Below are positions 30,622 through 45,599 of a stretch of DNA of 45,796 bases, piece by piece. The translations under genes were made by a program, and so were the position numbers. Position 1 is the stretch's first letter; each line of letters opens with the position of its first letter. Below the pieces are notes generated by a model, which saw only the letters and a list, made by a program, of their open reading frames with translations, was not told the origin of the DNA and did not search any database. The stretch lies in assembly GCA_009840005.1 (NCBI GenBank), contig VXOR01000005.1, positions 1 to 45,796 on the forward strand, given 5' to 3'. Source of the DNA: Gemmatimonadota bacterium (GTDB lineage Bacteria; Latescibacterota; UBA2968; UBA8231).

Positions 30622-30777
30622 CTAAGTACACGACAGTAATCGAGTGGACGTTAGGCATGGGAGGGCTGAGATGCTTCGACTCCGCCTTGCTCCGCTCAGC
30701 ATGACCGGTGATGACGCCCCTGTTGTCATGCTGAGCGAAGCGAAGCATCCCATACCGCTCTACTGTCGTGTACTTAG
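30622..30777. mobile_element. MITE-like palindromic element, copy C (156 bp)
   Basis: The ends CTAAGTACACGACAGTA (30622-30638) and TACTGTCGTGTACTTAG (30761-30777) are perfect 17-bp inverted repeats, matching copy A. The inner palindrome is shared. TCCGACG lies directly outside both ends (30615-30621 and 30778-30784), and the match extends to 11 bp (TTAGTCCGACG) if the last TTAG is counted. This is a target-site duplication. The right end supplies the stop codon of the mini-polymerase gene. Confidence 0.85.
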
Positions 30778-33700
30778 TCCGACGTCAATCCCACAAAGAG
30801 CCGGCTGAACAAGCTAGTCAGCGGCTCGACCTCGCTGCGCTCAGCCGCCCTAGCAAAGACTACGCCCGGCTGCGCGGCCCTAGCGGCCCGACCCAAAACG
30901 TGATAATCGGCCCGGCTGGGCTGTTGGGCCGCTTCCCGCGCCTCGCTCCAGCCCTGGTTGGTGGCAGCCAAACCCCATAAGGCACGCGGGGCCCGCACCT
31001 TGGCCTCCTCCACCGACAGGCCGTCGCGCCAACAACCGCGCTGGGCGAATAGGCCGCCATCTTCCCGATAGATTAACCCACCGCCCACGTATTGAATCAA
31101 CTGCTGTTGGTTGCCCCGCGCCCCCGACAGCGACAACAGCGCTAGGGGCCCTAATTCATTGTCGTCGAAATCGGCCTGCTGGTAGAAAGCCGCCACTAAC
31201 TCGTCGCTGTACATTTGCCACTCGTCCCAATCGGCCTCCTCGGGCTGCTCGGGCCACTCCTTACTCGAACCTAGGAAGGGATTGAAGGAGGCCCCCGACT
31301 GCTTGCAGACCTCAAAGCCGCGCCGCGTCAACTGGTCGAGTGCCTCCAGTGCTCGCTGCAAACCCTCGCGCTGTAGCACCTGAGCTAGCAAGCGGTTGAG
31401 ATCGTGCTTGGAAAACAGCCGACTGCCATCCACGACCACTCCGGTCAGCCGCTCCACTTCGGCGCGGCCTTCCTCCGTGCGACAAAGCTGTGCCAAGCCC
31501 CATATCGTGCCGTGGTAGTTGTCGGCCACGTAGCGCCATATATCTGCATCGCGCTGTATGTGTCCGGCCACCGACAGCACAGTCTCGGCTTCGGTCTGGG
31601 CTTCCTCAGTAAGAGGCAAAAACACCTCTATCTGATCGCCGTCGAAATCTAGCTCCATCAGTCGACAAACGCGCGGATGGACGCGCACTGCGGCTTCAGT
31701 CAAACGCTGCGGACGAAAGGCCACCACTGCGGTGGACGCCGGGCCATCGTCAACCAGCACCCGCTGGGCGCTGTACAGCAGCACCCACGAACGCTCCATG
31801 ATCGCGTCCAGAACCTCAGTCGCTCGGGACGAACGGCGCGCCACTTCCTCGGCGCGACCTGCCTCCCGCTCTACCTGAGGCCCGAACAAAGCCCAGGCCA
31901 TTTCCTCGGGCAGGCCCACTTGGTCGAGCTCCAACTCAAACTCCGAGACAAGCGCGGCCCGGCCGCTAAACAGTGGTCTAGCCCGGAAGTGGAGGTGCTC
32001 CGGCCGCAACAACGCGGTAAAAAGGTCCTCCACCCGTTGGGTCACCTGCGCCACTGCTGGCCCGACTAGGGCTTCGGGCGCTTCGCTATCGACGATGCGT
32101 TGCAAGCGCGTATTGGCTTCGACCAAATCCTCGTAGCAGTCTCGGATCGGGTCGAACTCGGTCTCCGTGGGCAAACCCACCGTCCCCACTTGACGTCCCG
32201 GTGCCCACGGGTGCGGCACTGGCCGGGCCAAGGTCAGTCCCTCCGGCTCGGCAAAGGAAAAGCGCAACTCCCCGCCCGCCAACTCGGCTCGTATCCCGGC
32301 CATGCCCAACAACTGCTGCAACAAGGCAAAACGCGGGGACGGGAGGGAAGATGGGGATATTGGGCCGGAGGCCAAGCGCTGGCCAAGCGCATTGGCGTCG
32401 GGACGCTCAGCCGCGGCCGTGTTGAACAAAGCGTGGATATTGGCTACGGCCCCGGCCTCGCATAAAGCGCCGTAGGCCATCATGTCGAGCGCTGGTCCGC
32501 CGACTCCTGCCACCGCGATTTCCAAGTGCTCGGCCGCGGTGTGGGCCGCCAAACAGCCCCAGTACACCCACCCCACGGTGCTGCGATAGGGTAGCTTTGC
32601 GCCTTTGAGAGTCAGTTGCTCCATGCCGTCTTCGGGCAATTCCGCCGCCGCTAGCTGAGCTTTTAACGTCTCTTCGCTGGGTGCTTGGAAAGGCGGCACC
32701 ACCGCTGGGTGCCCGGCGGCTTGCGCGAGGCGACCCATGACCGCCTCGCGCTGCTGGCCGAAGTTGAGCCGCGAGACCATGCTGGTGGGGCTGAAGATGA
32801 GCTCTATCGGCGTACCATCGGGCAACTGCGGCATGTCGGCGTCGGGCAGGATGCGCGTCACCACCCCCTTGGCACCGTGGCGATTGCTTAGTTTGTCGCC
32901 CACCCCCATTGCGGCGGGGAAATCCATCCGCGCCGCGGCCGACTCGCTAATGACTAAGCCATCCTCAAACGTGTCCCCGTCCCACATGACGAAGGCGGTC
33001 AGCAGATTGTACCCACCCCAAAAGTCGGCGGCCTCGGGCTCGTATCCAGTCTGCACTAGGGCTGGTTCGGGTTTGTGGCCCTTGGAGGCCAAGCGCTGGT
33101 CGTGCTGCTGGCGGAACCAACCCGTGGAGTGGACCGGTGCCGCTGTATCGGCGGCGCTCGTCCACTGGCGCATCATATTGACGCCCATCAGGGCGCGATT
33201 GGTATCGTCGTGTTCTAAGAAGGGCACCATGGAGGCCGAAAACCCCAAGATGCTGTCGGGCGCGTCGTCGATCCGTTCGAGCTTGCCGTCGCGGATGCGG
33301 GCACCGCGAGCCACTTCCAGCACTCGGCCGATATTGGGGCCCTCGGGGATGCAGTAGGGGCACACTAGACCGTATTGGCTGTAGGGGAAAACATCTTGGC
33401 CGTCAAACGGCTCGACGACGATGGGGATCAAAGTCAGCCGCCGCAGATGGGTATAGCGGTCAAGCCAGTTGGTCGCCTGTAGATACTGCGAAGTTTCCTC
33501 CAGGTGGAAGTCGCGCAGCCAAGCGTCCAAAGGCAGCCAGTTGCGCACCAAGTCGTCGTCCCAGGCCAACTGCTCGGGGGCCGCCTCCAACCTTTGGTCA
33601 ACAAAGTCGTAGAGCTGCTCGCCCACACACAGAATTTGCGCCTGATCGAGTTCGCGTCGGTCGGGATAGGGGACCACGACCCGGTAGTTGCCTTCAATGT

Positions 33701-33923
33701 GGAAAAGGCCATCGCGGTCGGGCCGAGGCAAATCTCGGTACTCAACCTCGACCGAGGCATCGCCGAGTCCCAAGCTCAGTTTAATGGAAAAAGTATAAGA
33801 GTCCTGTTGTTCGACTTGATAATCGGCCAGCGGCAAGCGCTCACCCAAAAGCCGGGGCAGGCGCTGGTGGACGAAAAGGTCAAAGGACTCCCTATGCCAA
33901 GGTACGTCGAGATTCAATGTCAT
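30774..33923 (-). CDS. Compact single-chain RpoB-RpoC-like RNA polymerase
   Basis: A 1049-residue protein joining catalytic parts of both large RNA polymerase subunits. RpoB part: GLFHIEGNYRVVV (72-84), PEGPNIG (193-199), FLEHDDTNRALMG (235-247), FED (319-321), GDKLSNRHGAKG with both catalytic lysines K344 and K352, and the C-terminal clamp segment YRSTVGWVYW. RpoC part: LFSGRAALV.E (651-661), GLPEEMAWALFGP, VHPRVCRLMELDFDGDQ with the magnesium-binding DFDGD (759-763), GFEVCKQSG (869-877), SGARGNQQQ (933-941) and a bridge-helix-like REGL-type segment (966-). Missing are the RpoB lobes, the RpoC N-terminal zinc finger, most of the trigger loop and everything beyond. Bacterial RpoB plus RpoC total about 2,700 residues. 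It overlaps the upstream sigma gene by 4 bp. Identification of motifs is firm; transcription activity is inferred. Confidence 0.85.
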   Translation of the reverse strand: MTLNLDVPWHRESFDLFVHQRLPRLLGERLPLADYQVEQQDSYTFSIKLSLGLGDASVEVEYRDLPRPDRDGLFHIEGNYRVVVPYPDRRELDQAQILCVGEQLYDFVDQRLEAAPEQLAWDDDLVRNWLPLDAWLRDFHLEETSQYLQATNWLDRYTHLRRLTLIPIVVEPFDGQDVFPYSQYGLVCPYCIPEGPNIGRVLEVARGARIRDGKLERIDDAPDSILGFSASMVPFLEHDDTNRALMGVNMMRQWTSAADTAAPVHSTGWFRQQHDQRLASKGHKPEPALVQTGYEPEAADFWGGYNLLTAFVMWDGDTFEDGLVISESAAARMDFPAAMGVGDKLSNRHGAKGVVTRILPDADMPQLPDGTPIELIFSPTSMVSRLNFGQQREAVMGRLAQAAGHPAVVPPFQAPSEETLKAQLAAAELPEDGMEQLTLKGAKLPYRSTVGWVYWGCLAAHTAAEHLEIAVAGVGGPALDMMAYGALCEAGAVANIHALFNTAAAERPDANALGQRLASGPISPSSLPSPRFALLQQLLGMAGIRAELAGGELRFSFAEPEGLTLARPVPHPWAPGRQVGTVGLPTETEFDPIRDCYEDLVEANTRLQRIVDSEAPEALVGPAVAQVTQRVEDLFTALLRPEHLHFRARPLFSGRAALVSEFELELDQVGLPEEMAWALFGPQVEREAGRAEEVARRSSRATEVLDAIMERSWVLLYSAQRVLVDDGPASTAVVAFRPQRLTEAAVRVHPRVCRLMELDFDGDQIEVFLPLTEEAQTEAETVLSVAGHIQRDADIWRYVADNYHGTIWGLAQLCRTEEGRAEVERLTGVVVDGSRLFSKHDLNRLLAQVLQREGLQRALEALDQLTRRGFEVCKQSGASFNPFLGSSKEWPEQPEEADWDEWQMYSDELVAAFYQQADFDDNELGPLALLSLSGARGNQQQLIQYVGGGLIYREDGGLFAQRGCWRDGLSVEEAKVRAPRALWGLAATNQGWSEAREAAQQPSRADYHVLGRAARAAQPGVVFARAAERSEVEPLTSLFSRLFVGLTSD

Positions 33924-34519
33924 TCGCGTTCCTCCGGGTTATGGATGGCCTGCCAGGCCCGTGAGAGCTGGCGGCGACCGTGGTGAAGGCGCGACTTTAC
34001 GGTGCCTTCGGGAATACCCAAGCGTGCGGCCGCGTCCTGCACTTCGACTTGGGCGTCGTAGATCAGACGGAAAACTTCGCGCTTGTCCTCGGATAGTTCT
34101 TGTACTTGTCGCCGCAGCCAGCGTTGTTGGTCGGCCCTTTCCACTTGGGCGTCGGGGCGTTCGGACGCCGCCTCAATCATCCATTCGGGCACTTGCTGCG
34201 TCTCCTGCTCCACGGTTTCAGACAGCATTTCTAGCCGCTGCTCTCGCCGCCTCTGCACGGTGCGCAGGTGGGTCAGAGAAAGATGAGTGGCAATGCTAAA
34301 CAGCCAAGCAGCCGCAGAGCCTCGACCGCTCCATTGACCAGCCCGGTTCCACACTCGCAAGAAAACCTCCTGCACTACATCGTTAGCACTCGCATCGTCG
34401 CGGACGATGCAGCGCACGCGTTGGTGGACCTGCTCCCGATAGCGCTCAAAAAACTGCTGGAATGCGCGTTCATCGCGTTCTTTTATTTGCGCTATGAGTT
34501 GGGGGTCCGGTATCTGCAT
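33920..34519 (-). CDS. ECF-type sigma factor, coupled to the mini-polymerase
   Basis: About 199 residues with the two-domain ECF (group 4) sigma layout. The sigma-2 region (about 20-90) includes the core-binding DDASANDVVQEVFLRVW and the -10-recognising AAAWLFSIATHLSLTHLR. The sigma-4 region (about 130-190) carries LSEDKREVFRLIYDAQ and a helix-turn-helix ending RLGIPEGTVKSRLHHGRRQL. The stop and the downstream polymerase ATG share ATGA, so the two are translationally coupled. I start at 34519, where the sigma-2 region begins normally; an earlier ATG at 34597 has an AGGAGG but 13 nt away. No anti-sigma gene is visible next to it. Its natural partner may be the compact polymerase or the host core enzyme. 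Confidence 0.87.
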   Translation of the reverse strand: MQIPDPQLIAQIKERDERAFQQFFERYREQVHQRVRCIVRDDASANDVVQEVFLRVWNRAGQWSGRGSAAAWLFSIATHLSLTHLRTVQRRREQRLEMLSETVEQETQQVPEWMIEAASERPDAQVERADQQRWLRRQVQELSEDKREVFRLIYDAQVEVQDAAARLGIPEGTVKSRLHHGRRQLSRAWQAIHNPEERE

Positions 34520-34623
34520 TGAGGCTCTCTGCAAGTAAAGACGCCGCCCGGAAAGTACAGGTTCAAAGACGGCGGTAAAAAAGCTCGGAAATCTCATTGA
34601 AGGCCGGTTTCCTCCTTGAGTTG

Positions 34624-34638
34624 ACTCGCTAGTCGAGT
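34624..34638. promoter_or_regulatory. Inverted repeat in the divergent promoter region
   Basis: ACTCG (34624-34628) and CGAGT (34634-34638) form a short palindrome with a 5-nt centre, between the sigma gene (minus) and the PhyH gene at 34699 (plus). The position suits a dimeric regulator or an autoregulatory site. The match is short and could be chance. Confidence 0.3.
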
Positions 34639-34698
34639 GCGGTATCTTACCACCCACCGCCTGAAGACCAACCTCAACCTATACTAGATTGAGATCCC

Positions 34699-35655
34699 AT
34701 GAGCCTAACGCCAGCCCAACTCGATCAATTCCACCGCGATGGCTATATCATCGTCCCCGACCTATTCACTGCCGACGAGATGGATGATGCCCTAGCGGCG
34801 ATGGAACAGATTTTCTACGGCCAATCCTTCCAGCAGTGGTTGGCCGCTTGCGACCGCGGCAACGCCTCCGGGGTTTCGGACGGCTTCACCACCACGCACG
34901 ACCACTCCGAGGGCCGCTCGCAATTTCCCGTGGGCGCGCCGGCGCTAGATCGGCTGATCGAAAACGAAACCTATCTCGACATTTTTGAGCAATGTCTGGG
35001 CGCAAAAGCCAGCTACTGCAATGCCCATCTCTTCATGCGCTCGGGGCCTACTGACAAGCGCCATCCCGACAATTCTTGGGAGGGCTACCACATTGACCAC
35101 TATACCAATTGCCTGCTGCCGCCCTACGACCAAACAGGCCGTTTCGATTACGTCAATTCAGGGGTGTATCTGCACGATGTCGAAGACGACGGTGCCCCCA
35201 TGCTGGTCATCCCCGGCTCGCACAAAGTAGCTGGTCCCGCCTTTGTGCGGGCGCTTGCCCAAGACAACGCCGGGGGTGGGTCCTTCAAAGACCTGCGCCA
35301 AGCTACCGAACTAGCCGCTCCGCTCCCCGCCATTGGCCGGCGTGGCGCGGCTCTCTTTTACTCGTCGTACCTAGTACACGCGGCGCAACCCTTTGCCAAT
35401 AAGCGCAAGCAACGCGCCTTTTGGACCTTGTCCATGTGCCGCCGCGACAACGATCGCTGGACCCGATTCGCCAATCCCTTCATCTACGGCGAACGCGATT
35501 ACATGCTGCCTTTCTTTACTGCCACCACGCCCCGAGTGCGCAGCCTGTTCGGCTGGCCCGAACCCGGACACCCGTACTTCACCAGCCAAACCCTAGACCT
35601 TTTGGAGCATACCCTGCCCGGTATTGATACAGGTCCTTATCGCGATGAGGGCTGA
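34699..35655 (+). CDS. PhyH-family dioxygenase (copy 6)
   Basis: A 318-residue PhyH protein, opening LDQFHRDGYIIVPDLF. Iron ligands are H131 and D133 (YHIDHY) and H227 (LVHAAQP), with an arginine near 239 for 2-oxoglutarate. DDGAPMLVIPGSH is the family core. It is divergent from the sigma factor/mini-polymerase pair, sharing the 34520-34698 gap with it. It is the last high-GC gene before the lower-GC Dnd island. The substrate is unknown; co-regulation with the polymerase pair is possible but unproven. Confidence 0.86.
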   Translation: MSLTPAQLDQFHRDGYIIVPDLFTADEMDDALAAMEQIFYGQSFQQWLAACDRGNASGVSDGFTTTHDHSEGRSQFPVGAPALDRLIENETYLDIFEQCLGAKASYCNAHLFMRSGPTDKRHPDNSWEGYHIDHYTNCLLPPYDQTGRFDYVNSGVYLHDVEDDGAPMLVIPGSHKVAGPAFVRALAQDNAGGGSFKDLRQATELAAPLPAIGRRGAALFYSSYLVHAAQPFANKRKQRAFWTLSMCRRDNDRWTRFANPFIYGERDYMLPFFTATTPRVRSLFGWPEPGHPYFTSQTLDLLEHTLPGIDTGPYRDEG

Positions 35656-36115: not shown

Positions 36116-37534
36116 TTGAATCAGAATACGGACATCATCAAACTCTCGGACTCGATATTTGTACATCATCCGCTTGAGGAGATTTACGATGGGATCCGCA
36201 AGATCTATAGACAAAATACGTGTCCATGGGTGATCGGCTACAGCGGTGGTAAAGACTCTACTGCGGTGTTGCAACTCGTTTGGTACGCTCTCGCAGACTT
36301 GCCGCAAGAGGAGCGATCGAAACCAGTTTATGTTTTGTCCTCTGATACTCTCGTCGAGACTCCTGTTATGGTCGATTATATCGATCAGACGCTTGAACAA
36401 ATCAACAATACTGCTGCTTTACAGGATCTTCCTTTCGAAGCTCACAAAGTTACGCCACAAATGGAAGATACTTTTTGGATAAACATGATAGGGAAAGGAT
36501 ATCCCGCACCCAGCTCACGATTCCGATGGTGTACTGATAGACTCAAGATTAAGCCGGCTAATGCTTTTATTTTAGAATGCGTCGCCAAATACGGCGAGGC
36601 AATAGTTGTTCTTGGTGTCCGAAAGAACGAAAGTGCTACGCGGGCGCAGGCGATGAGTTTAAGTAAGATCAACGGCACTGTACTAAGACGTCATTCAACG
36701 CTTCCCAGCGCCTTTGTTTATGCCCCTATAGAAGACTTCAGCACTGACGATGTGTGGTCTTACCTTCTTAACGTACCGTCACCTTGGGGCGGACAGAATC
36801 GTGACCTACTAGCACTGTATAGAAATGCGCAAGCGGGTGAATGTCCTCTGGTCATTGATACGACTACTCCTTCGTGTGGCAATAGTCGCTTTGGATGCTG
36901 GGTCTGTACCGTTGTCACCAAAGACTACACGATGGAGACTTTGATAGATAACGGGGAAGAATGGATGGAGCCGCTACTTGAACTTCGCGATTTTCTCGCT
37001 TCCACCCAAGAACCTACGAACAAAGTAAAGTATAGGGACCACAAAAGACGTGGAGGCCAAGTGTCATTTAAGCCCGATGGAGATATAGCGCGGGGACCCT
37101 ATCGACTTGATACGTGCAAAGAAATTTTACGACGCCTTTTGATGGCTCAGAGGGAAGTTGCTCGTCATCCAGAGGGGCGTGATGTGTGTCTTATAGGAAA
37201 AGATGAGCTCAAGGAAATTCGCCGTATTTGGAGGACGGAGCGACAGGACTGGCAAGACAGTGTTCCATCCATCTTCCGAGATGTCATGCGACAAGATCTT
37301 GACTGGCCTATAGACGACGCCCCTAGATTCTCCAAGTCAGATTACGAACTCTTAGACTTAGTTTGTCAGTCCCAGGATGTGCCTACAGACCTAGTGGCAA
37401 AGCTGTTGGAAACTGAGCGCCAGTTCCAAGGAATGAAACGACGTGCAGGCATTTTTGATCGGATAGAGCAAATCCTCATGGAGAATTGGAGCAGTGAGGA
37501 AGAGATACTAGCCGAGTCCCAGCAAAATAGCTAA
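36116..37534 (+). CDS. dndC: DNA phosphorothioation protein DndC (PAPS-reductase-like)
   Basis: A 472-residue protein of the adenine-nucleotide alpha-hydrolase/PAPS reductase fold. In Dnd systems DndC activates DNA and, with its iron-sulphur cluster, helps deliver sulphur to the backbone. The PP-loop SGGKDST is at 43-49. Four cysteines (C243, C254, C261, C264) in a C-x10-C-x6-C-x2-C pattern fit the 4Fe-4S cluster. R.RWCTDRLK is the usual nucleotide-contact segment. It starts with TTG, seven nt after AGGAGG. It is the first gene of the dndCDEA operon (9 bp to dndD). Family assignment is strong. Confidence 0.93.
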   Translation: MNQNTDIIKLSDSIFVHHPLEEIYDGIRKIYRQNTCPWVIGYSGGKDSTAVLQLVWYALADLPQEERSKPVYVLSSDTLVETPVMVDYIDQTLEQINNTAALQDLPFEAHKVTPQMEDTFWINMIGKGYPAPSSRFRWCTDRLKIKPANAFILECVAKYGEAIVVLGVRKNESATRAQAMSLSKINGTVLRRHSTLPSAFVYAPIEDFSTDDVWSYLLNVPSPWGGQNRDLLALYRNAQAGECPLVIDTTTPSCGNSRFGCWVCTVVTKDYTMETLIDNGEEWMEPLLELRDFLASTQEPTNKVKYRDHKRRGGQVSFKPDGDIARGPYRLDTCKEILRRLLMAQREVARHPEGRDVCLIGKDELKEIRRIWRTERQDWQDSVPSIFRDVMRQDLDWPIDDAPRFSKSDYELLDLVCQSQDVPTDLVAKLLETERQFQGMKRRAGIFDRIEQILMENWSSEEEILAESQQNS

Positions 37535-37543
37535 GGTATATCC

Positions 37544-39559
37544 ATGTTTCTGAAGCGACTGGTCGTTGAAAACTTCGGGCCATTCCATGGCTTGCATACG
37601 GTCAATCTGCTCATTGAACAACCTACAGGAAATCAGCACCCAGTCATTCTCTTCGGTGGTCGTAACGGCAGTGGCAAAACATCACTCTTAGACGCTATCA
37701 GATTGTGCCTCCATGGGCGACACGCACTAGGCAATCTGCGAACTGCTGATTACTATGACTATCTCAGACACCGCATTCATCAGGGATCTGACGGCAAACG
37801 GCTCTTACGGTCTTCGGTTCGCCTAGAGATCAAGACAGTAGAAGTTGGACAAAAGCACATCTATGAGATAACCCGCTCTTGGCGTGATGCCACAAAAGTA
37901 GCCGAAAAGCTCGAGATTAGCCGGAACGGCGAAGCTCTGAAGGAACTATATGTTGATCAGTACCAAGCATTCCTTAATGAACTAGTGCCACTCGGACTGG
38001 CTGAATTCTTTTTTATAGACGGCGAACGTATTCAGAGGCTAGCGGAGGCAAATGGAAGCGATCAGGTTGTTGCGGATTCCGTCCGTAGCCTTTTAGGCCT
38101 GCATCTGACTTCGCGTCTACAGGCTGACATCGCAATCCTTATGCGGAGTCGGGATAGCTCTCGCCCCACGGAAGAAGCTCAGGCGGAGATAGAGGCGACA
38201 CGGTCTCGTCTAAAGGAAGTAAGAGATCGCATACAAGAGCTGAAGGCTGAATACCGCGTAGCTGAAGATAAAAGTAGTAGTTTGGAGCGAGCAGTAGAAC
38301 TGCAAGAGCAAAAGATAGCTTCGGAAGGGGGCGACTTTGCTAGACGTCGCGAACGCCTGATTAAGACTCAGTCTACTTGGGAAGCTACTCTTCAGTCGTG
38401 TGAAACTGAACTACGTGAGTTATCAAATGACTTGCTACCTTTTAGTTTGGTCCCGGAACTATGTGAGGCAGTGCGACAACGGGTAGAGGAGGAAACCGAG
38501 GCACTTCGCGAAGAGTTTGCCTTGTCGGTACTGAACACTAAACAGCAGGAACTTCTTAAGACGCTGAACTCGTCCAAATTCTGGGAAGAGACGTTCGGCG
38601 ACACCCTTACCAAAAAAGACCGAAAGTCGGTCACTAAGGCACTCCAATGCCTAGTCAAACAGGTAGTGCCCGATGTCGACCACCAAGACCGACCTAAAGT
38701 TCATGATCTCTCGGAACGTGATAAGCAGATCCTTTTCGCAACTATTGAGGCTGTCCTAACCGACATTCCTCGACAGGCTGCCCAACTTATTGCTACAGCC
38801 GAGGAGGCACGCCAACACTTGGTAAAAGTTGAGCAAGATCTTCAGCGGGTCCCAAAAGAAGAAGTTCTCAAGCCACTGGTAGACGAGCTAGGCCGTCTCC
38901 AGGAGGAGCTCAGTGATGCACGACGCGAGCAAATGAACTTAGAGGCAGAGTTACGCCGTACGAATATGGAACAAGAGGATATTGAGAGGTCAAGAAAGAG
39001 GACCATTGAACGCCAGCTCCACTTGGAACAGAAAGCGAAAGCAATGGCTCTGGCCGCCAAGGTCCGTAGTGCCCTTCACTCGTACGAGCAAGAACTGACT
39101 ATTGCTCGTGTAGCGCATCTTGCTGAGTGTGTAACAGAGTGCTACAGGCAGCTTGCACATAAGGAGAGTCTCTGCAGTCACGTTCGATTCGATCCTAAAA
39201 CCCTTGCCATCAGTCTTTTCGACGACCAAGGCCATGTTGTCTACCGGCCACTTCTGTCCGCGGGAGAGAAACAGATCTTGGCTATCGCTATACTATGGGG
39301 TCTTGGTCGCGCCTCGGGTCGCGAGTTACCAATCGTAATTGATACACCGCTGGCTCGCTTGGATGCCGAACATCGTGGTCGATTACTGTCAAGTTATTTT
39401 CCACATGCCAGTCACCAAGTCATATTGCTCTCTACGGATAGCGAAATCACTGACAAAGGCTTGGAAGCCCTGAATCCTAGCATCGCTAAGGCTTTTCACC
39501 TGCAATTTGATCCAGGGCATGGACGGACGACAATCGAGGAAGGGTATCTTCCAGTATAG
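37544..39559 (+). CDS. dndD: DNA phosphorothioation ATPase DndD (SMC-like)
   Basis: A 671-residue SMC/Rad50-type ATPase, the usual length for DndD, which is thought to nick or remodel DNA during sulphur insertion. Walker A is GRNGSGKTS (39-47). A long coiled coil (about 220-520) follows. The ABC signature is LSAGEKQ (571-577) and Walker B LPIVIDTPLARLD (595-607). The end FDPGHGRTTIEEGYLPV is shared in pattern with the second DndD-like ATPase on the other strand. It is co-transcribed with dndC and dndE. GC is lower than in the left half of the window. Confidence 0.92.
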   Translation: MFLKRLVVENFGPFHGLHTVNLLIEQPTGNQHPVILFGGRNGSGKTSLLDAIRLCLHGRHALGNLRTADYYDYLRHRIHQGSDGKRLLRSSVRLEIKTVEVGQKHIYEITRSWRDATKVAEKLEISRNGEALKELYVDQYQAFLNELVPLGLAEFFFIDGERIQRLAEANGSDQVVADSVRSLLGLHLTSRLQADIAILMRSRDSSRPTEEAQAEIEATRSRLKEVRDRIQELKAEYRVAEDKSSSLERAVELQEQKIASEGGDFARRRERLIKTQSTWEATLQSCETELRELSNDLLPFSLVPELCEAVRQRVEEETEALREEFALSVLNTKQQELLKTLNSSKFWEETFGDTLTKKDRKSVTKALQCLVKQVVPDVDHQDRPKVHDLSERDKQILFATIEAVLTDIPRQAAQLIATAEEARQHLVKVEQDLQRVPKEEVLKPLVDELGRLQEELSDARREQMNLEAELRRTNMEQEDIERSRKRTIERQLHLEQKAKAMALAAKVRSALHSYEQELTIARVAHLAECVTECYRQLAHKESLCSHVRFDPKTLAISLFDDQGHVVYRPLLSAGEKQILAIAILWGLGRASGRELPIVIDTPLARLDAEHRGRLLSSYFPHASHQVILLSTDSEITDKGLEALNPSIAKAFHLQFDPGHGRTTIEEGYLPV

Positions 39560-39568
39560 GAGCGTTAA

Positions 39569-39976
39569 TTGGTAAACACTGATCGGATCGTTAAGATCTA
39601 TTTATCTGCAGACAATACTCGGAAGGTTCGGACGCTCAGAATTCGAACCAGTCTGACTCCGAATGTTCTTTGCCGATTTGCTCTTGCTCTTTCCCTCCGC
39701 GATCGTGGAAGTCCTGACCCTTCCACATTTCCCAACGACGGCATGGAGTTCAATCGATACACGCTCTTGGGAGTCCACGAGGTTCTCATGCTTGCTCTTG
39801 TACGTCAACGCTGTCTGCAAGACGGGCTAGATCCTGAGACAGAGTTGGAAGAACAGCTACGTGCGCACATCAACCGTGGAATAGGCATCCTCTATCCTAG
39901 GCTGAAATCTCTATCTGATCTGGGGGAGCTCACCACCCAAGCGTGTTCTGTGAGGAGTAGTCAGAGTGCCAGTTAA
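39569..39976 (+). CDS. dndE: DNA phosphorothioation protein DndE
   Basis: A 135-residue protein of DndE size and position, between dndD and the cysteine desulphurase. DndE binds nicked DNA and is needed for phosphorothioate modification. A basic helix-rich core (RKVRTLRIRTSLTPNVLCRFALALSLRD) and the conserved FNRYTLLGVHE segment fit the family. The tail RGIGILYPRLKSLSDLGEL is also typical. Translation starts with TTG, a few nt after TAGGAGCG. It overlaps the next gene by 11 bp. Confidence 0.85.
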   Translation: MVNTDRIVKIYLSADNTRKVRTLRIRTSLTPNVLCRFALALSLRDRGSPDPSTFPNDGMEFNRYTLLGVHEVLMLALVRQRCLQDGLDPETELEEQLRAHINRGIGILYPRLKSLSDLGELTTQACSVRSSQSAS

Positions 39977-41159
39977 GACGCCAATCTATATGGACTATCA
40001 CGCGACCACTCCCGTCGATTCCAGGGTCGTTCAGGCAATGTTGCCCTACTTCACGGAGACCTTTGGCAACGCAGCAAGCATCGACCACTTGTATGGTCAT
40101 GCTGCAAAGGAGGCGGTGGAAAAGGCACGCGACTCCATTGCACAGTTAATTAACGCTCGGTACTCGGAAGAGATAGTCTTCACGAGTGGGGCCACTGAGT
40201 CTGACAATATCGCCTTAATCGGGATTGCTGAAGCTTACGGTCATAAGGGGAATCACATCATCACGTCTTCAGTGGAGCACAAGGCAGTACTCGACACACT
40301 TGACTACCTAACTGGAAGAGGGTTTAGAGCTAGTGTCCTTCCAGTCGATCAATATGGAATGGTAGATCCCGCAGATGTCGGTAAGGAGATTACTGATGAG
40401 ACTATATTAGTCTCGATCATGACGGCCAACAATGAGATAGGGACCATACAACCGATCAAGGAGATTGGGAGAATCGCGAGGGAGCATGGTGTCTTCTTCC
40501 ACACTGACGCCGCTCAGGCCGTCGGACACATCCCCATGGATGTGGAGGACATGAACATCGACCTAATGGCCTTTACAGCCCACAAGGTTTATGGGCCAAA
40601 GGGTGTCGGAGCCTTATACGTCCGTCGTAGAAGGCCACGTGTAAGTCCGTATCCGGTGATCCACGGAGGGGGACACGAGCGAGGTATTCGGTCTGGCACA
40701 CTCAACATACCAGGCATAATTGGCTTTGCGAAAGCGTTGGAAATCGCTAGGCAGGAGATGGAAGACGAAGGGAAGCACCTGCGCGAATTGACGGACCAGA
40801 TGTTTAAGGATCTGCAACGACGTATTGATGGCATTGAAAGGAATGGCCATTGGACTGATCGCTTACCACATAATCTCAACGTTTACATCCCGGGAGTCGA
40901 AAGTAGGGCGATAGTATTGGATCTGCGAGAATTTGTATCATTCTCCACCGGTTCCGCCTGTACTACGGCAAGAGTAGAGCCCAGTCACGTGATTCAGGCT
41001 CTAAGCTTAACCGAGGAAAGGGCACATAGTTCAATTAGATTTGGACTAGGACGGTTTACGACTATAGAAGAAGTTCAGGCCGTCGCCGATAAAGTAGTAC
41101 AAGCGGTACATAGCATTCGGCACCGTTTTCTTAGGGCCGCCTCTGCCCATCCTGCCTAA
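39966..41159 (+). CDS. dndA: Cysteine desulphurase DndA/IscS-like
   Basis: A 397-residue PLP enzyme that takes sulphur from cysteine, supplying the phosphorothioation pathway. H105 (SSVEHKAVL) and K207 (TAHKVYGPKG, the PLP-binding lysine) are visible, as is the catalytic C332 in STGSACTTA. Sequence class is NifS/IscS type I/II. It starts with GTG and overlaps dndE by 11 bp. Its place at the end of the operon gives the order dndC-D-E-A, unlike the classic divergent dndA plus dndBCDE of Streptomyces. The function is firm; whether it also serves Fe-S assembly is not known. Confidence 0.93.
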   Translation: MPVKTPIYMDYHATTPVDSRVVQAMLPYFTETFGNAASIDHLYGHAAKEAVEKARDSIAQLINARYSEEIVFTSGATESDNIALIGIAEAYGHKGNHIITSSVEHKAVLDTLDYLTGRGFRASVLPVDQYGMVDPADVGKEITDETILVSIMTANNEIGTIQPIKEIGRIAREHGVFFHTDAAQAVGHIPMDVEDMNIDLMAFTAHKVYGPKGVGALYVRRRRPRVSPYPVIHGGGHERGIRSGTLNIPGIIGFAKALEIARQEMEDEGKHLRELTDQMFKDLQRRIDGIERNGHWTDRLPHNLNVYIPGVESRAIVLDLREFVSFSTGSACTTARVEPSHVIQALSLTEERAHSSIRFGLGRFTTIEEVQAVADKVVQAVHSIRHRFLRAASAHPA

Positions 41160-41291
41160 TCACACAGAGGAATTTTAAAACAGTATCTTAAGGGAACTTG
41201 TCTGGCCTGTGCGTACGTTCTGCACATTGGCGAAAAACCTCTCAGACAGATGTCTTATCTTATATTTGAGCTATGCCGATAGGGAGGTGAC

Positions 41292-42557
41292 TTATGAGAC
41301 TTTCTGGGGCAGCTTAACTTTTTCCGGTTCCAATCCTAGTATCTTAGCGTAATCTTCGTGCAATCGGTCGACATTCTTCGTAGGATAGTTCAGTATATAG
41401 AGTAGCAAATTTCTAGCGAGTGGTCTGCTGCCCATGATCTTTTTTCGACTTGGATTCCAGATAACAGGATTGTAAGGGGGTTGAGTCAACTCTGTAGGCA
41501 ATTTTGAAATCAAACTAAAACATTCAGTCAGTGGATATTTCTCTACTAGTGTGGCGACAATTTCGGTTAATATCTTTAGTCCTATAGGTCGAAAGAGTAC
41601 GCTGCCTCCATCCGAATGTCTGTATCCTTTGACGACTGTTGGATAATCAGGCGTATTAACAAATTTCCTCAGTGGTATAAAACTATTTGTAAGTTGTCTA
41701 AAATAATCACAAGCATTGATATAATGTTGCTCAAGAATATCATCCGATTGCCGTATTTTAGTGAGCTCATCTCTTTTTTCCTTAAGTCCCTTCTTTTTTG
41801 ATGTGACGTATACTTTTGTAAACAATATGTCTAAAATATCGTAAAGATTTCCAATAGTCGTAAGGCAAGTCTGATTACTATTCGGTATATTATCAGTTGC
41901 ATTGTTTAAGATTCGATTGTCCCTAAACATCGGATTTTCCGTAACCATCCTCCGGACAGTAATAGCCATCGCATCATCCTCATCAAGGGTAATCTTTTCT
42001 CCCTTTGATACTTGGACGGCATTTTTATTCAATGTCGTGAAAAGTCTGCGACTTCTTTTCATTCCCTCTGGATCTGTTTTATGAGCGATAAAGATTATCG
42101 ACAGCTCATCTTCGCCCAATTTAGGGTCTTCTTTCACAGCTTCTCTGATTCCTATGAGTCGGTGTTGTCCATCAAGTGTGAATAGTCTTTCCTCACCGTT
42201 CAAACTGAGAATTCCAATCCCAGCAATGACATCTTCTGGGATGTCCTCAACATCCAATTGATTATTGCTCTTAATATTGGTGATATCATACCAGCTAGGA
42301 TCACCTTCATGGACTGCAACGATGAGTGAATTGAAAAAACGCTGTGGTTGTTGAAGGAGATAATTTTTTATTTCTTTACCTCTTTTTATTTTTATATATC
42401 TCTGTACCATATCACTCAAAGGTTTGCTTTTATAAAGCTCTTCAGCAATTTCGACCCTTTCAGCAATATCTTTAAGTTTCATGAGAGTAGGGTAATACAC
42501 CCAATCACCAATTATTCCTCTTAGCGAAGAAAGATATAGTTTTTTCATAATTTTCAC
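41292..42557 (-). CDS. DGQHR-domain protein, DndB-like
   Basis: A 421-residue protein with the defining motif DGQHR (129-133) in LFTLDGQHRLIGIREA, followed by RLFTTLNKNAVQVSKGEK, also typical. DndB is the regulator that controls the extent of phosphorothioation; related DGQHR proteins accompany Dnd systems. Here it is on the opposite strand, convergent with dndA, and longer than typical DndB, so it could be a Dnd-associated DGQHR protein rather than DndB. It starts at GTG, sharing GTGA with the stop of the upstream nuclease gene. The gene is strikingly AT-rich relative to dndCDEA, a sign of separate acquisition. Confidence 0.8.
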   Translation of the reverse strand: MKIMKKLYLSSLRGIIGDWVYYPTLMKLKDIAERVEIAEELYKSKPLSDMVQRYIKIKRGKEIKNYLLQQPQRFFNSLIVAVHEGDPSWYDITNIKSNNQLDVEDIPEDVIAGIGILSLNGEERLFTLDGQHRLIGIREAVKEDPKLGEDELSIIFIAHKTDPEGMKRSRRLFTTLNKNAVQVSKGEKITLDEDDAMAITVRRMVTENPMFRDNRILNNATDNIPNSNQTCLTTIGNLYDILDILFTKVYVTSKKKGLKEKRDELTKIRQSDDILEQHYINACDYFRQLTNSFIPLRKFVNTPDYPTVVKGYRHSDGGSVLFRPIGLKILTEIVATLVEKYPLTECFSLISKLPTELTQPPYNPVIWNPSRKKIMGSRPLARNLLLYILNYPTKNVDRLHEDYAKILGLEPEKVKLPQKVS

Positions 42558-43066
42558 ACTCTTGACAATTTAACTGCGTCACCTATCTCTGCTGAATATC
42601 CTTTTTGAGAGTACGGTGGGGTAAAGGTGTCTAACAGTCTTTGCTCTAGCTGTTCTATATCCATTTGTGATGGCTTTACTTCGACATAATAAAAATACAG
42701 GTAGTCTTCCCATGTAGTCAACATAGAATGAATTAGACTTCTTTTTGGCCTCTCTTTGTCATAGAGATAATCTCTAAATCTTTTTCGCAAGTGACGCTTG
42801 CTTTTATATCCTGTTTCTCCAATATACATTACATAACGCGATGGCAATTGAGCAATTCTTGGCTCAACGACAAAGGCATAAACTCCCTTCTCTGTAGGAA
42901 TCTTAGTTGCGCTATCTCTCTCGAACTTCACACATTGCCAATCCAATTCAATAGGTGGATCAGTGTAAGTATCCCACTGTTCTTTCCAAAGAAGAAAATT
43001 TACCCGATATATTTTCACATATTCTTTCGTATCTTCCTTAGGCCTTATCACATCTTGATATACCAT
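42554..43066 (-). CDS. GIY-YIG nuclease-domain protein
   Basis: A 170-residue protein. The motif halves are GVYAF and YVMYIGETG, 20 residues apart, followed by LRKRFRDYL with the conserved arginine, and a later acidic residue in DIEQLEQRLLDTF. That pattern is the GIY-YIG endonuclease fold. I start it at the ATG at 43066, preceded by AGGAG; an upstream TTG is also possible. It overlaps the DGQHR gene by 4 bp and is translated with it. Position next to a phosphorothioation operon suggests a restriction partner, but the target is not known. The DNA here is very AT-rich. Confidence 0.75.
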   Translation of the reverse strand: MVYQDVIRPKEDTKEYVKIYRVNFLLWKEQWDTYTDPPIELDWQCVKFERDSATKIPTEKGVYAFVVEPRIAQLPSRYVMYIGETGYKSKRHLRKRFRDYLYDKERPKRSLIHSMLTTWEDYLYFYYVEVKPSQMDIEQLEQRLLDTFTPPYSQKGYSAEIGDAVKLSRV

Positions 43067-43197
43067 AACATCTCCTGGCAAATAAATCCATCCATCTCCA
43101 CATCAGATTTACATTAGAGGCCGTTTTAAAACCCATGTAGGGTCGTATTACGTGCATGGGGATACCGAAGCATCAATTACACTGTCGTCATGAGAGT

Positions 43198-43626
43198 TCA
43201 TGATTTGCTTCCTCTTGTCGCATTATCTATCAGAAAATTTACCAGACTCTCAAGTGGCATACCTGGCTGGTCAGCGATTTGCCTACGGATTTGGTCGATG
43301 CCTGCGTTGGCGTACTCTTCTGCAATCGTCAGAAGCTGATTTTGATCGGTCAAGACTGTCGTGCTGCCGGTCTCGGCGATGGCGATCGCTCGAAGTATAG
43401 GAATATCTTCCTGTGGTGAGAAAACAGGCCAACGGAAGATTTCCCGCTGGCTTGAGAGTGGTAGCCGACGCCTACGGGTAAATCCTGCGCTTGTGGCGAG
43501 CATGAACATATCCTTCATCGTCTTGAAAGGTGCGTCACTGCCCGTGGTAAGCTGAGAATATAGTTCGTGATGAACAGGATCTATATGGATGCTATCTCGT
43601 CGTGTAACCTCTTCGTGTGGAATCAC
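43198..43626 (-). CDS. Small Dnd-associated-type protein
   Basis: A 142-residue protein. The core FKTMKDMFMLATSAGFTRRRRLPL followed by REIFRWPVF and a run of acidic and aliphatic residues (DIPILRAIAIAETG) resembles the Dnd system-associated protein 4 family. I know this family only as a recurring small neighbour of phosphorothioation genes with no assigned activity. It starts with GTG after GAGGAG. It lies 11 bp from the stop of the second ATPase gene, in the same transcript. The assignment is by memory of the family pattern. Confidence 0.6.
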   Translation of the reverse strand: MIPHEEVTRRDSIHIDPVHHELYSQLTTGSDAPFKTMKDMFMLATSAGFTRRRRLPLSSQREIFRWPVFSPQEDIPILRAIAIAETGSTTVLTDQNQLLTIAEEYANAGIDQIRRQIADQPGMPLESLVNFLIDNATRGSKS

Positions 43627-43637
43627 TTATCATCTCC

Positions 43638-45599
43638 TCAGCTTTGCTGCGAGTCTCTCGTCGCTAGCTCTTCGATCGTGCTAGATCCCGTGTTTTGATC
43701 AAAGGTCAGTTTGTATTCAGCACCTATGCGATGCTTGAGGTTGTCACGAGCCTTTGAGTGGAGTTCTTCATCGGTCACGAAGATCACCAATTGATCCGTC
43801 AGATCTGGAACGTGTCGAGTTATTGCTTCGCGGTGGGCACTGCTCAAGCGCCCAAAGGGTGTATCCATCACCAACGGGGCTTCCTCGCCAGTCACTTTTG
43901 CCATACCTGTGATAAACGCAAGACTTAGGACTTGACGCTCTCCAGCCGACAGCTCCGGCCTAGCGGGAAGTCCCCATCGATCGATTACTTCTAGATGGTA
44001 ATCCTCGCTGAGTTGGACGTCTTGGAACTGAGATTCCTTCCAGACTAGGCATCTGAAGGCCTCCTTAGCCTCAGTTTGGATATTAGCTCGCATATCACGG
44101 GCGAAAGCATCCTCCATCCCTTCTACTGCATCGGAAGCCTTTCGGGCAAGAGAGAAACGTCGTTGCATGTCCTGCGCCCGCTTTTCCGACAGTTGCGCCT
44201 TATCTATGGCAGATTGGAGCTTATCCAAGTCAGCACGTCGATTATCTAGGCGTTCTTCGAATCTCCCGATATCACTCCCCAGCGCACGGATTTTTCGTTC
44301 ATACTCCATCCGCTTGATCTCCAAGGCAGAGACCTCTTCGAGCTCCACGCCTTGCAAGTGACGACTTACTTCGTCCAGCGTGGCGGCTAACCCTTCAAGC
44401 CTGTGATCGATCTCTGCCTTGCGACGCATAAGCTTTCGGAGGTCCAGATCGACGTCCTCGACCCTTGGCTGGACAGCCCGCAAATCTCCAGCCGTTTGCA
44501 GCACAACGTTTTCCAACTCTGATGGTAAGGAGCGAGCCAACACTTCCATCAAGCGACAATATTCCTCTGACTCTTCCTCTATAGACCGACCACAGATGCA
44601 CCTATGAGCAGCAAGCAGGTCATTTACGAACTGCTCCCGGATGCCGGGCGGAATCTCTCCCCGCTCACGCATGGCCTCAAGAACCTCGAGAGCCTTCGAG
44701 ATAGCTTCATTGGCAAAACAGAGAAAGCCTTGGTTCGATTTCTCCTTTATTTCTTCCCATAGTCGGTCCTTCTCTTGTTCATGGACCTCGCTCTCCTCCA
44801 CCGCCACCTTTCGCTTATCGTCCCATTCGCGAATCTCCCGAATCTCTCCCAGCTTTACATCAATTTCCTGCATCTGGCGTTTGGCGGCAACTTCCTCCTT
44901 ACGAAACTCTATCAAACTCTGCTGTATATTTTCAGCTTCGTTACGAAGTTTCTCCTCCTTGTCCAGCAGATCTTCAATTCCTCCCGACGCAAGCTTCTTG
45001 AGCTCACTTTGATATTCTCGTGCTACGACGCCTAGATGATTCTTCGCCCGTTCAAGAACCTCAATTTTGAGCACATTACGTACGGCCTCTCGTACCTCTG
45101 CTTCATGCGACGGACGAGTGAACTGATCAATCTTCTCTCCATCAAAGAAAAAATAGGTGCGTACATTGGACGGCAAGATGGATTCTACATAGCCGGTAGG
45201 ATTTGGGATTCTACGAGTCTGGCCATCTGAACGAATGGAATCAAGGGAAAACTCAGTCTGTGGCTTAGTTTGCCACCGCTGGGAACTAGTTTTGCTCACT
45301 GAGAGCGCTCGTGTCGCTGTTAATCGCTCTCCTGAATGAGAGAAGGCAAGTTGCACTTTCATTTCTATTTCTTCGTCGACTGCGGCCTCCATGATAGCTT
45401 GCTTGCTAACGAGCTCTCCCATATCTTCGACACCAAGTCCATAAAGGCACCAGTTTAAAGCAGTGAACAACGAAGTCTTGCCCGATCCATTCGCTCCGTG
45501 TACTACGGTGACGTTTTGTCTCTGATGTCGGCTGAAGTGGATGGTTTGGTCTCCATAGAACTGACGAAAATTAGTAAGGCTCATCCATTCAAGCTTCAT
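43638..45599 (-). CDS. Second DndD-like SMC ATPase
   Basis: A 653-residue SMC/Rad50-type ATPase. It has Walker A GANGSGKTS (35-43), a coiled coil, a CICG turn (C334, C336) at the hinge like a reduced zinc hook, ABC signature LSAGERQ (550-556), and Walker B LVMDTPFGRL (577-586). Its closing segment FDQNTGSSTIEE parallels that of DndD on the other strand, so they are probably paralogues. It belongs to the minus-strand accessory group and could provide restriction or interference. It overlaps the end of a truncated upstream gene by 11 bp. Its function in defence is inferred from the setting. Confidence 0.85.
   Translation of the reverse strand: MKLEWMSLTNFRQFYGDQTIHFSRHQRQNVTVVHGANGSGKTSLFTALNWCLYGLGVEDMGELVSKQAIMEAAVDEEIEMKVQLAFSHSGERLTATRALSVSKTSSQRWQTKPQTEFSLDSIRSDGQTRRIPNPTGYVESILPSNVRTYFFFDGEKIDQFTRPSHEAEVREAVRNVLKIEVLERAKNHLGVVAREYQSELKKLASGGIEDLLDKEEKLRNEAENIQQSLIEFRKEEVAAKRQMQEIDVKLGEIREIREWDDKRKVAVEESEVHEQEKDRLWEEIKEKSNQGFLCFANEAISKALEVLEAMRERGEIPPGIREQFVNDLLAAHRCICGRSIEEESEEYCRLMEVLARSLPSELENVVLQTAGDLRAVQPRVEDVDLDLRKLMRRKAEIDHRLEGLAATLDEVSRHLQGVELEEVSALEIKRMEYERKIRALGSDIGRFEERLDNRRADLDKLQSAIDKAQLSEKRAQDMQRRFSLARKASDAVEGMEDAFARDMRANIQTEAKEAFRCLVWKESQFQDVQLSEDYHLEVIDRWGLPARPELSAGERQVLSLAFITGMAKVTGEEAPLVMDTPFGRLSSAHREAITRHVPDLTDQLVIFVTDEELHSKARDNLKHRIGAEYKLTFDQNTGSSTIEELATRDSQQS

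Follow-up and report, generated by a model that had tools for sequence, protein, structure and literature searches.

A compact one-chain RpoB-RpoC protein encoded beside an ECF-type sigma factor in bacterial chromosomes

The stretch of DNA considered here, referred to below as the window, comprises 45,796 nucleotides (positions 1 to 45,796 of contig VXOR01000005.1, assembly GCA_009840005.1) and comes from a Gemmatimonadota bacterium that GTDB places in Latescibacterota. On its minus strand, at 30774..33923, an uninterrupted frame from ATG to stop encodes a compact one-chain RpoB-RpoC protein of 1049 residues. Directly upstream on the same strand, at 33920..34657, lies a gene for an extracytoplasmic function (ECF)-type sigma factor, 245 aa in its longest frame (the start used in most close relatives is at 34597), which matched Sigma70_r2 (4e-14), Sigma70_r4_2 (2e-13) and TIGR02937 and thus possesses sigma regions 2 and 4 and no region 3. 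The stop of the sigma gene overlaps the start of the polymerase gene by four bases, ATGA, and GGAGG stands immediately ahead of the polymerase start. An earlier note, made from the sequence alone, had described the polymerase gene correctly in the main and was silent on the overlapping sigma gene.

The compact protein joins the catalytic parts of both large subunits of RNA polymerase. Three Pfam domains scored above their curated cut-offs (Rpb2_6, 6e-30; Rpb1_2, 2e-12; Rpb2_3, 2e-5), and among PDB chains the protein matched RpoB (2e-43) and RpoC (8e-19). In profile alignments against rpoB and rpoC from the genomes of relatives, residues 87-553 corresponded to RpoB 393-1260 and residues 593-991 to RpoC 263-770, both with about 100% probability. 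The structure model of the whole chain had a predicted local distance difference test score (pLDDT) of 90.4 and a predicted template modelling score (pTM) of 0.87. The beta' half was also modelled separately, since the structural list of the whole model held beta matches, and the two halves were placed by structural alignment on the beta and beta' subunits. By Pfam, PDB, profile and structure alike, the chain has one catalytic half homologous to RpoB and another homologous to RpoC, as expected of a two-barrel RNA polymerase. The earlier note had claimed a single 1049-residue chain carrying the motifs of both subunits and had proposed the Rpb2_6 and Rpb1_2 profiles and a structure prediction as checks; the open frame, the domain scores, the profile alignment and the predicted fold of the halves all bore this out, and its positions were right for GDKLSNRHGAKG (residues 342-353), DFDGD (759-763), PEGPNIG, FLEHDD.NRALMG, FED and SGARG.

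On the minus strand, GDKLSNRHGAKG, with the RpoB-type catalytic lysines K344 and K352, is encoded at 32865..32900, the metal-binding loop DFDGD at 31635..31649 and SGARG (residues 933-937) at 31113..31127; the window protein therefore has the DxDGD loop and the two active-site lysines. The RpoC coiled-coil profile and the model locate the beta' coiled coil, or clamp helices, at residues 591-638 (32010..32153), with modelled helices at 591-612 and 617-638. In the ordinary enzyme this coiled coil holds sigma region 2, and it is likely to be the docking site of that region here. By profile alignment and model, a helix at residues 971-999 (30927..31013) occupies the bridge-helix position, and the chain ends 50 residues past it. 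In the structural alignment, the beta' half covers RpoC from residue 16 as far as residue 1358; therefore, the extreme RpoC C-terminus appears to be retained, probably as the conserved segment 1009-1046 (30786..30899), while an internal stretch with the trigger loop and jaw is missing. The sequence-only match of this terminus to that of RpoC is weak (hhalign, 1.3%). Thus, the earlier claim that the C-terminal half of RpoC had been dropped holds for the internal stretch and fails for the coiled coil, the barrel, the SGARG loop and the bridge-helix start, which lie in the aligned residues 593-991.

Three parts that characterize a canonical core, namely the flap, the RpoC zinc finger and the trigger loop, have been lost from the compact family, while the clamp helices, both catalytic barrels and the bridge-helix start have been kept. 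The loss of the flap follows from the ISES-to-GDK spacing, which is 13-27 residues in 172 members of the family, compared with 147-266 residues from FED to GDK in 15 canonical rpoB. None of the same 172 members showed a zinc-type Cys pair between residues 540 and 600. As for the trigger loop, its signature [GS]EP.TQ occurs in none of them and EP.TQ in one, compared with 14 of 14 canonical rpoC.

To describe the association with the sigma gene, 56 non-redundant loci were collected, of which 3 lacked the 5' part of the polymerase gene; the remaining 53 loci, in 52 genomes, comprise 50 from the main survey and three (L026, L030 and L032) from longer flanks. A homologous sigma gene lay upstream on the same strand in all 53, which represent four phyla, as had already been the case in each of an initial set of 14 loci that include a 5' end. 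The gap between the longest frames was at most 50 bp at 36 of the 53 loci, and in one Latescibacterota subgroup a varying extra gene lies between the two. No third partner gene common to distant lineages was found in the flanks of 16 loci and the window. The linked sigmas of the four phyla formed one clade against 32 other ECF sigmas from seven genomes (Shimodaira-Hasegawa-like approximate likelihood ratio test, SH-aLRT, 100). They share with ECF sigmas in general the possession of regions 2 and 4 only, but they differ from them in having a relative of the polymerase as neighbor and in forming a clade of their own. Moreover, sigma and polymerase distances were correlated (r=0.95, 46 pairs, 0 of 2000 permutations as high), also among distant pairs alone (r=0.77), with host phylogeny, which was not removed, contributing to the correlation. 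The sigma-polymerase pair is therefore one of conserved linkage and joint descent.

Homologs of the compact protein with E up to 1e-3 numbered 1116 in a single-sequence search and 1525 in an alignment search, both drawn from the 8000 best candidates and possibly including canonical subunits. The best 120 of the 1116 cover 56-100% of the query, and 111 relatives of 960-1120 aa align with it end to end. The nearest relatives are 91-93% identical along the whole chain, share neighbors with the window and fall, together with the Latescibacteria chromosome L003, into one phylum group. The family was found in 22 of 64 genomes of the phylum Latescibacterota (20 listed loci, plus fragments in G013 and pieces in G043), in 11 of 84 Poribacteria genomes, one of them (G075) with a truncated copy, in 17 of 201 sampled Armatimonadota genomes and in 5 of 400 sampled Chloroflexota genomes. 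One small family fragment in G065, from the Latescibacterota set, stands outside the 22. The G075 copy (L142, 4308-6368, plus strand) lacks the sigma gene as well as the initial third of the polymerase gene, and in G043 the gene lies in several pieces on contig C276; both are likely decaying. A full-length canonical rpoB, which the earlier note had proposed to look for, was present elsewhere in 12 of 14 carrier genomes of relatives and was not found in G011 and G012, two genomes of unstated completeness.

The catalytic residues were compared across the 172 members. All five (D759, D761, D763, K344 and K352) are intact in 129. K344 is replaced by R in 29 members, by A in 1 and by T in 1, while K352 is changed in 8, D759 in 11, D761 in 1 and D763 in 4; the motifs were unchanged in the canonical controls (15 of 15 rpoB and 14 rpoC). 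Alanine or threonine at the first lysine, with the rest of the site intact, was observed in the closely related loci L011 and L016 from two Poribacteria metagenome-assembled genomes. In a tree of 46 rows, the Armatimonadota, Chloroflexota and Poribacteria rows mostly have the full set together with RAP and NADFDGD. Within the clade of the window protein, defined as 51 members more than 80% identical, the three aspartates, K352, E320, D321, R243 and R385 are the same in every member; however, SAQ replaces RAP in 50 of 51, and all 51 have an E where N is normal, two places ahead of DFDGD. The lost R of RAP and the lost N are, we presume, residues that contact the sugar of the nucleoside triphosphate (NTP). 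As for the lysines, the counterparts of K344 and K352 in the bacterial enzyme contact the alpha-phosphate of the initiating nucleotide, according to the part of PMC3994528 consulted, the numbering match being our own.

Selective constraint was estimated from the ratio of nonsynonymous to synonymous substitution rates (dN/dS) among close relatives. The median was 0.159 for the polymerase gene (28 pairs) and 0.153 for the sigma gene (21 pairs), compared with 0.078-0.108 for three neighbors, 0.070 for canonical rpoB and 0.074 for rpoC. The polymerase gene is thus maintained by purifying selection, less tightly than the main enzyme.

We consider it fairly probable that the window protein is a one-chain RNA polymerase brought to promoters by the ECF-type sigma factor encoded upstream. 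Under this proposal, sigma region 2 would dock on the retained clamp helices, the sigma factor would melt and read the promoter, and RNA synthesis by the one-chain core would begin at that point. Because there is no flap, region 4 would have to be anchored in another way. Initiation and elongation of RNA at the pair's own promoters would proceed with neither alpha nor a trigger loop, and because the latter is absent, low fidelity would be expected, as is reported for YonO. The earlier note had suggested a dedicated minimal polymerase; its compact chromosomal fusion stands, while the pairing with a sigma gene and the varying catalytic residues alter the picture.

Several observations weigh against the proposal of a sigma-directed polymerase. 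First, 43 of the 172 members have a change at one or more of the five catalytic residues, and the 46-row tree requires at least 6 switches between the intact and changed states of the set. Second, in the clade of the window protein position 344 carries K in 33 of the 51 members and R in the other 18, and it ranks among the most variable 6% of sites; moreover, the RAP motif, found in 78 of the 172 members, is absent from the window protein. Third, the flap, where sigma region 4 usually docks, is absent from the compact chain, and constraint is about twofold looser than on canonical rpoB and rpoC. Fourth, no target promoters were found when 5 genomes were scanned, allowing up to 3 mismatches, with a conserved block of DNA ahead of the sigma gene. 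This block, at 34618..34650 (no strand assigned), emerged from an alignment of 9 relatives; it occurred as a single copy per genome in 5 of 5 genomes, and therefore no target genes could be derived from a regulon motif. Its function might lie with the sigma gene or with the divergent PhyH-like gene at 34699, whose promoter it may be; a promoter-like match on its plus strand was at chance level. Lying between these two genes, the block contains the inverted repeats GGTA-AGA-TACC and GACT-AGCG-AGTC.

These points bear on the alternative that the protein, in the whole family or only in lineages like that of the window, is a sigma-guided pseudo-polymerase that binds sigma and perhaps promoters, polymerizes little or not at all, and sequesters sigma or blocks the main polymerase. 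Repeated change of the catalytic residues while the sigma pairing persists would fit this explanation, as would the K344R polymorphism, the loss of RAP and the N-to-E change in the window clade and the absence of the trigger loop. The position of the gene also speaks for it, since the place beside an ECF sigma gene is a frequent one for anti-sigma genes in ECF operons. However, the complete set of five residues in 129 members, the eight residues invariant throughout the window clade and the consideration that a plain sigma sponge needs no two intact barrels argue against it, and we regard it as rather unlikely. Because only those 129 have the complete catalytic set and two motifs close to the active site have been lost from the window clade, some copies may be defective and may instead block promoters under the guidance of sigma. 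Judged by its residues, the family most likely polymerizes, with change or decay in some lineages, and the copy in the window is a borderline case for polymerase activity.

We give little credence to a template-dependent polymerase of another kind, used for primer synthesis, copying RNA or relaxed in its choice of sugar, with sigma as a loading factor. The motif changes of the window clade presumably fall at NTP sugar contacts, as such an enzyme might show. In addition, two-barrel enzymes include RNA-templated ones and PolD, as stated in the part of PMC10770324 available. Nevertheless, the pairing with sigma points to promoters, and no replication or RNA-interference gene common to distant lineages was found in the compared flanks.

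The recent import of an RNA polymerase from a phage or plasmid is very improbable, even though most known one-chain two-barrel RNA polymerases come from phages and plasmids (PMC10770324, in part). The gene has a GC content of 0.627 and a codon correlation of 0.87, within the ranges of nine neighbors (0.567-0.638 and 0.70-0.92), which agrees with the earlier view of a host-like, chromosomal and long-resident gene; it is surrounded by metabolic genes and has neighbors in common with close relatives. The searches matched 32 phage and 66 plasmid records, none of them over more than 80% of the query, so that a phage or prophage location like that of YonO is not indicated. A two-pattern scan of IMG/VR yielded 51 loci with partial matches, whose best segments were 21-54% identical, and matches in PHROGs were to polymerase-subunit or unnamed families only. 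Finally, an ordinary rpoB or rpoC damaged by a frameshift or deletion, which domain content alone would allow, deserves practically no credence and was ruled out by NCBIfam scores far under the full-length cut-offs (partial matches of 158.6 bits against 801 for rpoB and 86.9 against 963 for rpoC), by the 111 end-to-end relatives, by the canonical rpoB in most carriers and by the dN/dS of 0.16.

The origin of the compact form was approached with a tree of 58 rows and 972 columns, built by a short search and containing no archaeal, eukaryotic or phage rows. The compact family formed one clade nested within chains that unite alpha, beta and beta' (SH-aLRT 96), apart from the canonical enzymes (SH-aLRT 100), although the branch of the compact family measures 1.51. 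These alpha-beta-beta' single-chain RNA polymerases are a finding in their own right. One of them, L084 (416-6355, minus strand, contig C268 of G008), is a 1979-aa frame with RpoA, RpoB and RpoC domains; its kin (P0142-P0158, P0165, P0167 and P0168) measure about 1910-2080 aa, there are shorter kin without alpha (P0159-P0164, P0166 and P0169-P0176), and the family is also represented at the ends of contigs C28 and C65 of G062. In 14 of these chains the Asp triad, both lysines, RAP and the trigger-loop core are invariant. NRHG occurs in 167 of 172 compact members, 12 of 13 alpha-beta-beta' chains and 4 of 7 shorter kin, compared with GRHG in 15 of 15 canonical rpoB. Searched with the profile of the linked sigma, the short stretches flanking L084 and the two G062 contig ends yielded no sigma. 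By these sequence comparisons, the compact form was likely pruned from a longer alpha-beta-beta' single-chain lineage, fusion coming first and pruning and the gain of sigma later. A separate RpoB-RpoC fusion of 1474 aa, open at the 5' end of its contig and with Rpb2 domains 3, 6 and 7 and Rpb1 domains 1 and 2, was observed in G019 (L085, 2-4426, plus strand, contig C540).

Among known systems, the alpha-beta-beta' chains (L084, P0142) are thus the nearest tree relatives, likewise single chains with NRHG, but they are longer (about 1950-2080 aa for these two and others) and keep the RpoA domains and the trigger loop, both of which the compact family lacks. Full-length RpoB-RpoC fusions (P0180, P0189, P0223 and P0256; 2461-2604 aa) also have RpoB followed by RpoC in one chain, but they retain the full domain set and cluster with the canonical enzymes; the compact proteins do not reach half their length and stand apart from them in the tree, in line with the distinction drawn in the earlier note. 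The available text of PMC5467207 describes YonO of the SPbeta prophage as an efficient DNA-dependent RNA polymerase of low fidelity, which resembles the compact protein in being one chain of about 100 kDa with a DxDGD loop and no trigger loop. According to the same text, YonO resembles multisubunit enzymes in no more than a few catalytic residues, and any promoter factor is left open there, a description that sets apart the compact family with its long RpoB/RpoC alignment and linked sigma. The portion of PMC7481178 consulted likewise states that the fused crAssphage and YonO enzymes align poorly to cellular ones. One-chain two-barrel polymerases have been described in phages, in plasmids and in RNA interference (PMC10770324, in part). 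Among them, QDE-1, gp66 of the crAss-like phage phi14:2 and gp64 and gp96 of P23-45 share with the compact family two barrels in one chain and reduced accessory domains; the compact family differs in being of cellular type and chromosomal. QDE-1 and the phage one-chain enzymes were not among the best 50 structural matches listed for the whole model or the beta' half, which excludes nothing. PMC10770324 also mentions a clade with fused derivatives of cellular enzymes, and the compact family may already figure among the "derivatives with fused DPBB domains" in its 23-family alignment. In one open-access library, no paper turned up that describes a one-chain polymerase paired with a sigma factor in bacterial chromosomes.

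Elsewhere in the window, a Dnd phosphorothioation island at 36116-45599 contains DndC-, DndD-, DndE-, DndA- and DndB-like genes, a Dnd-associated protein 4-like gene and a second DndD-like gene. Its GC content is low, 0.375-0.508 in five genes, its GC and codon use are not host-like, and the island is absent from the loci of the compared relatives.

The general view, to our knowledge, is that a bacterial cell has a single core RNA polymerase, which all its sigma factors share. We hold it an evenly balanced question whether a second transcription system operates autonomously in several bacterial phyla, in the form of a two-protein holoenzyme consisting of a one-chain polymerase of about 1050 residues, derived from alpha-beta-beta' chains and without alpha, flap and trigger loop, and its private ECF sigma, with some lineages, perhaps that of the window, having turned it into a sigma-guided dead polymerase that silences promoters. 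If true, a private sigma with a one-chain core would break the one-core rule and would constitute a strikingly small sigma-dependent RNA polymerase. The pair makes it testable which domains promoter-specific initiation needs, since it has no flap for region 4, no alpha and no trigger loop. Two natural series are available as well: the alpha-beta-beta' relatives lead from the full enzyme to a minimal core, and the changing active sites lead from a polymerase to a possible promoter blocker.

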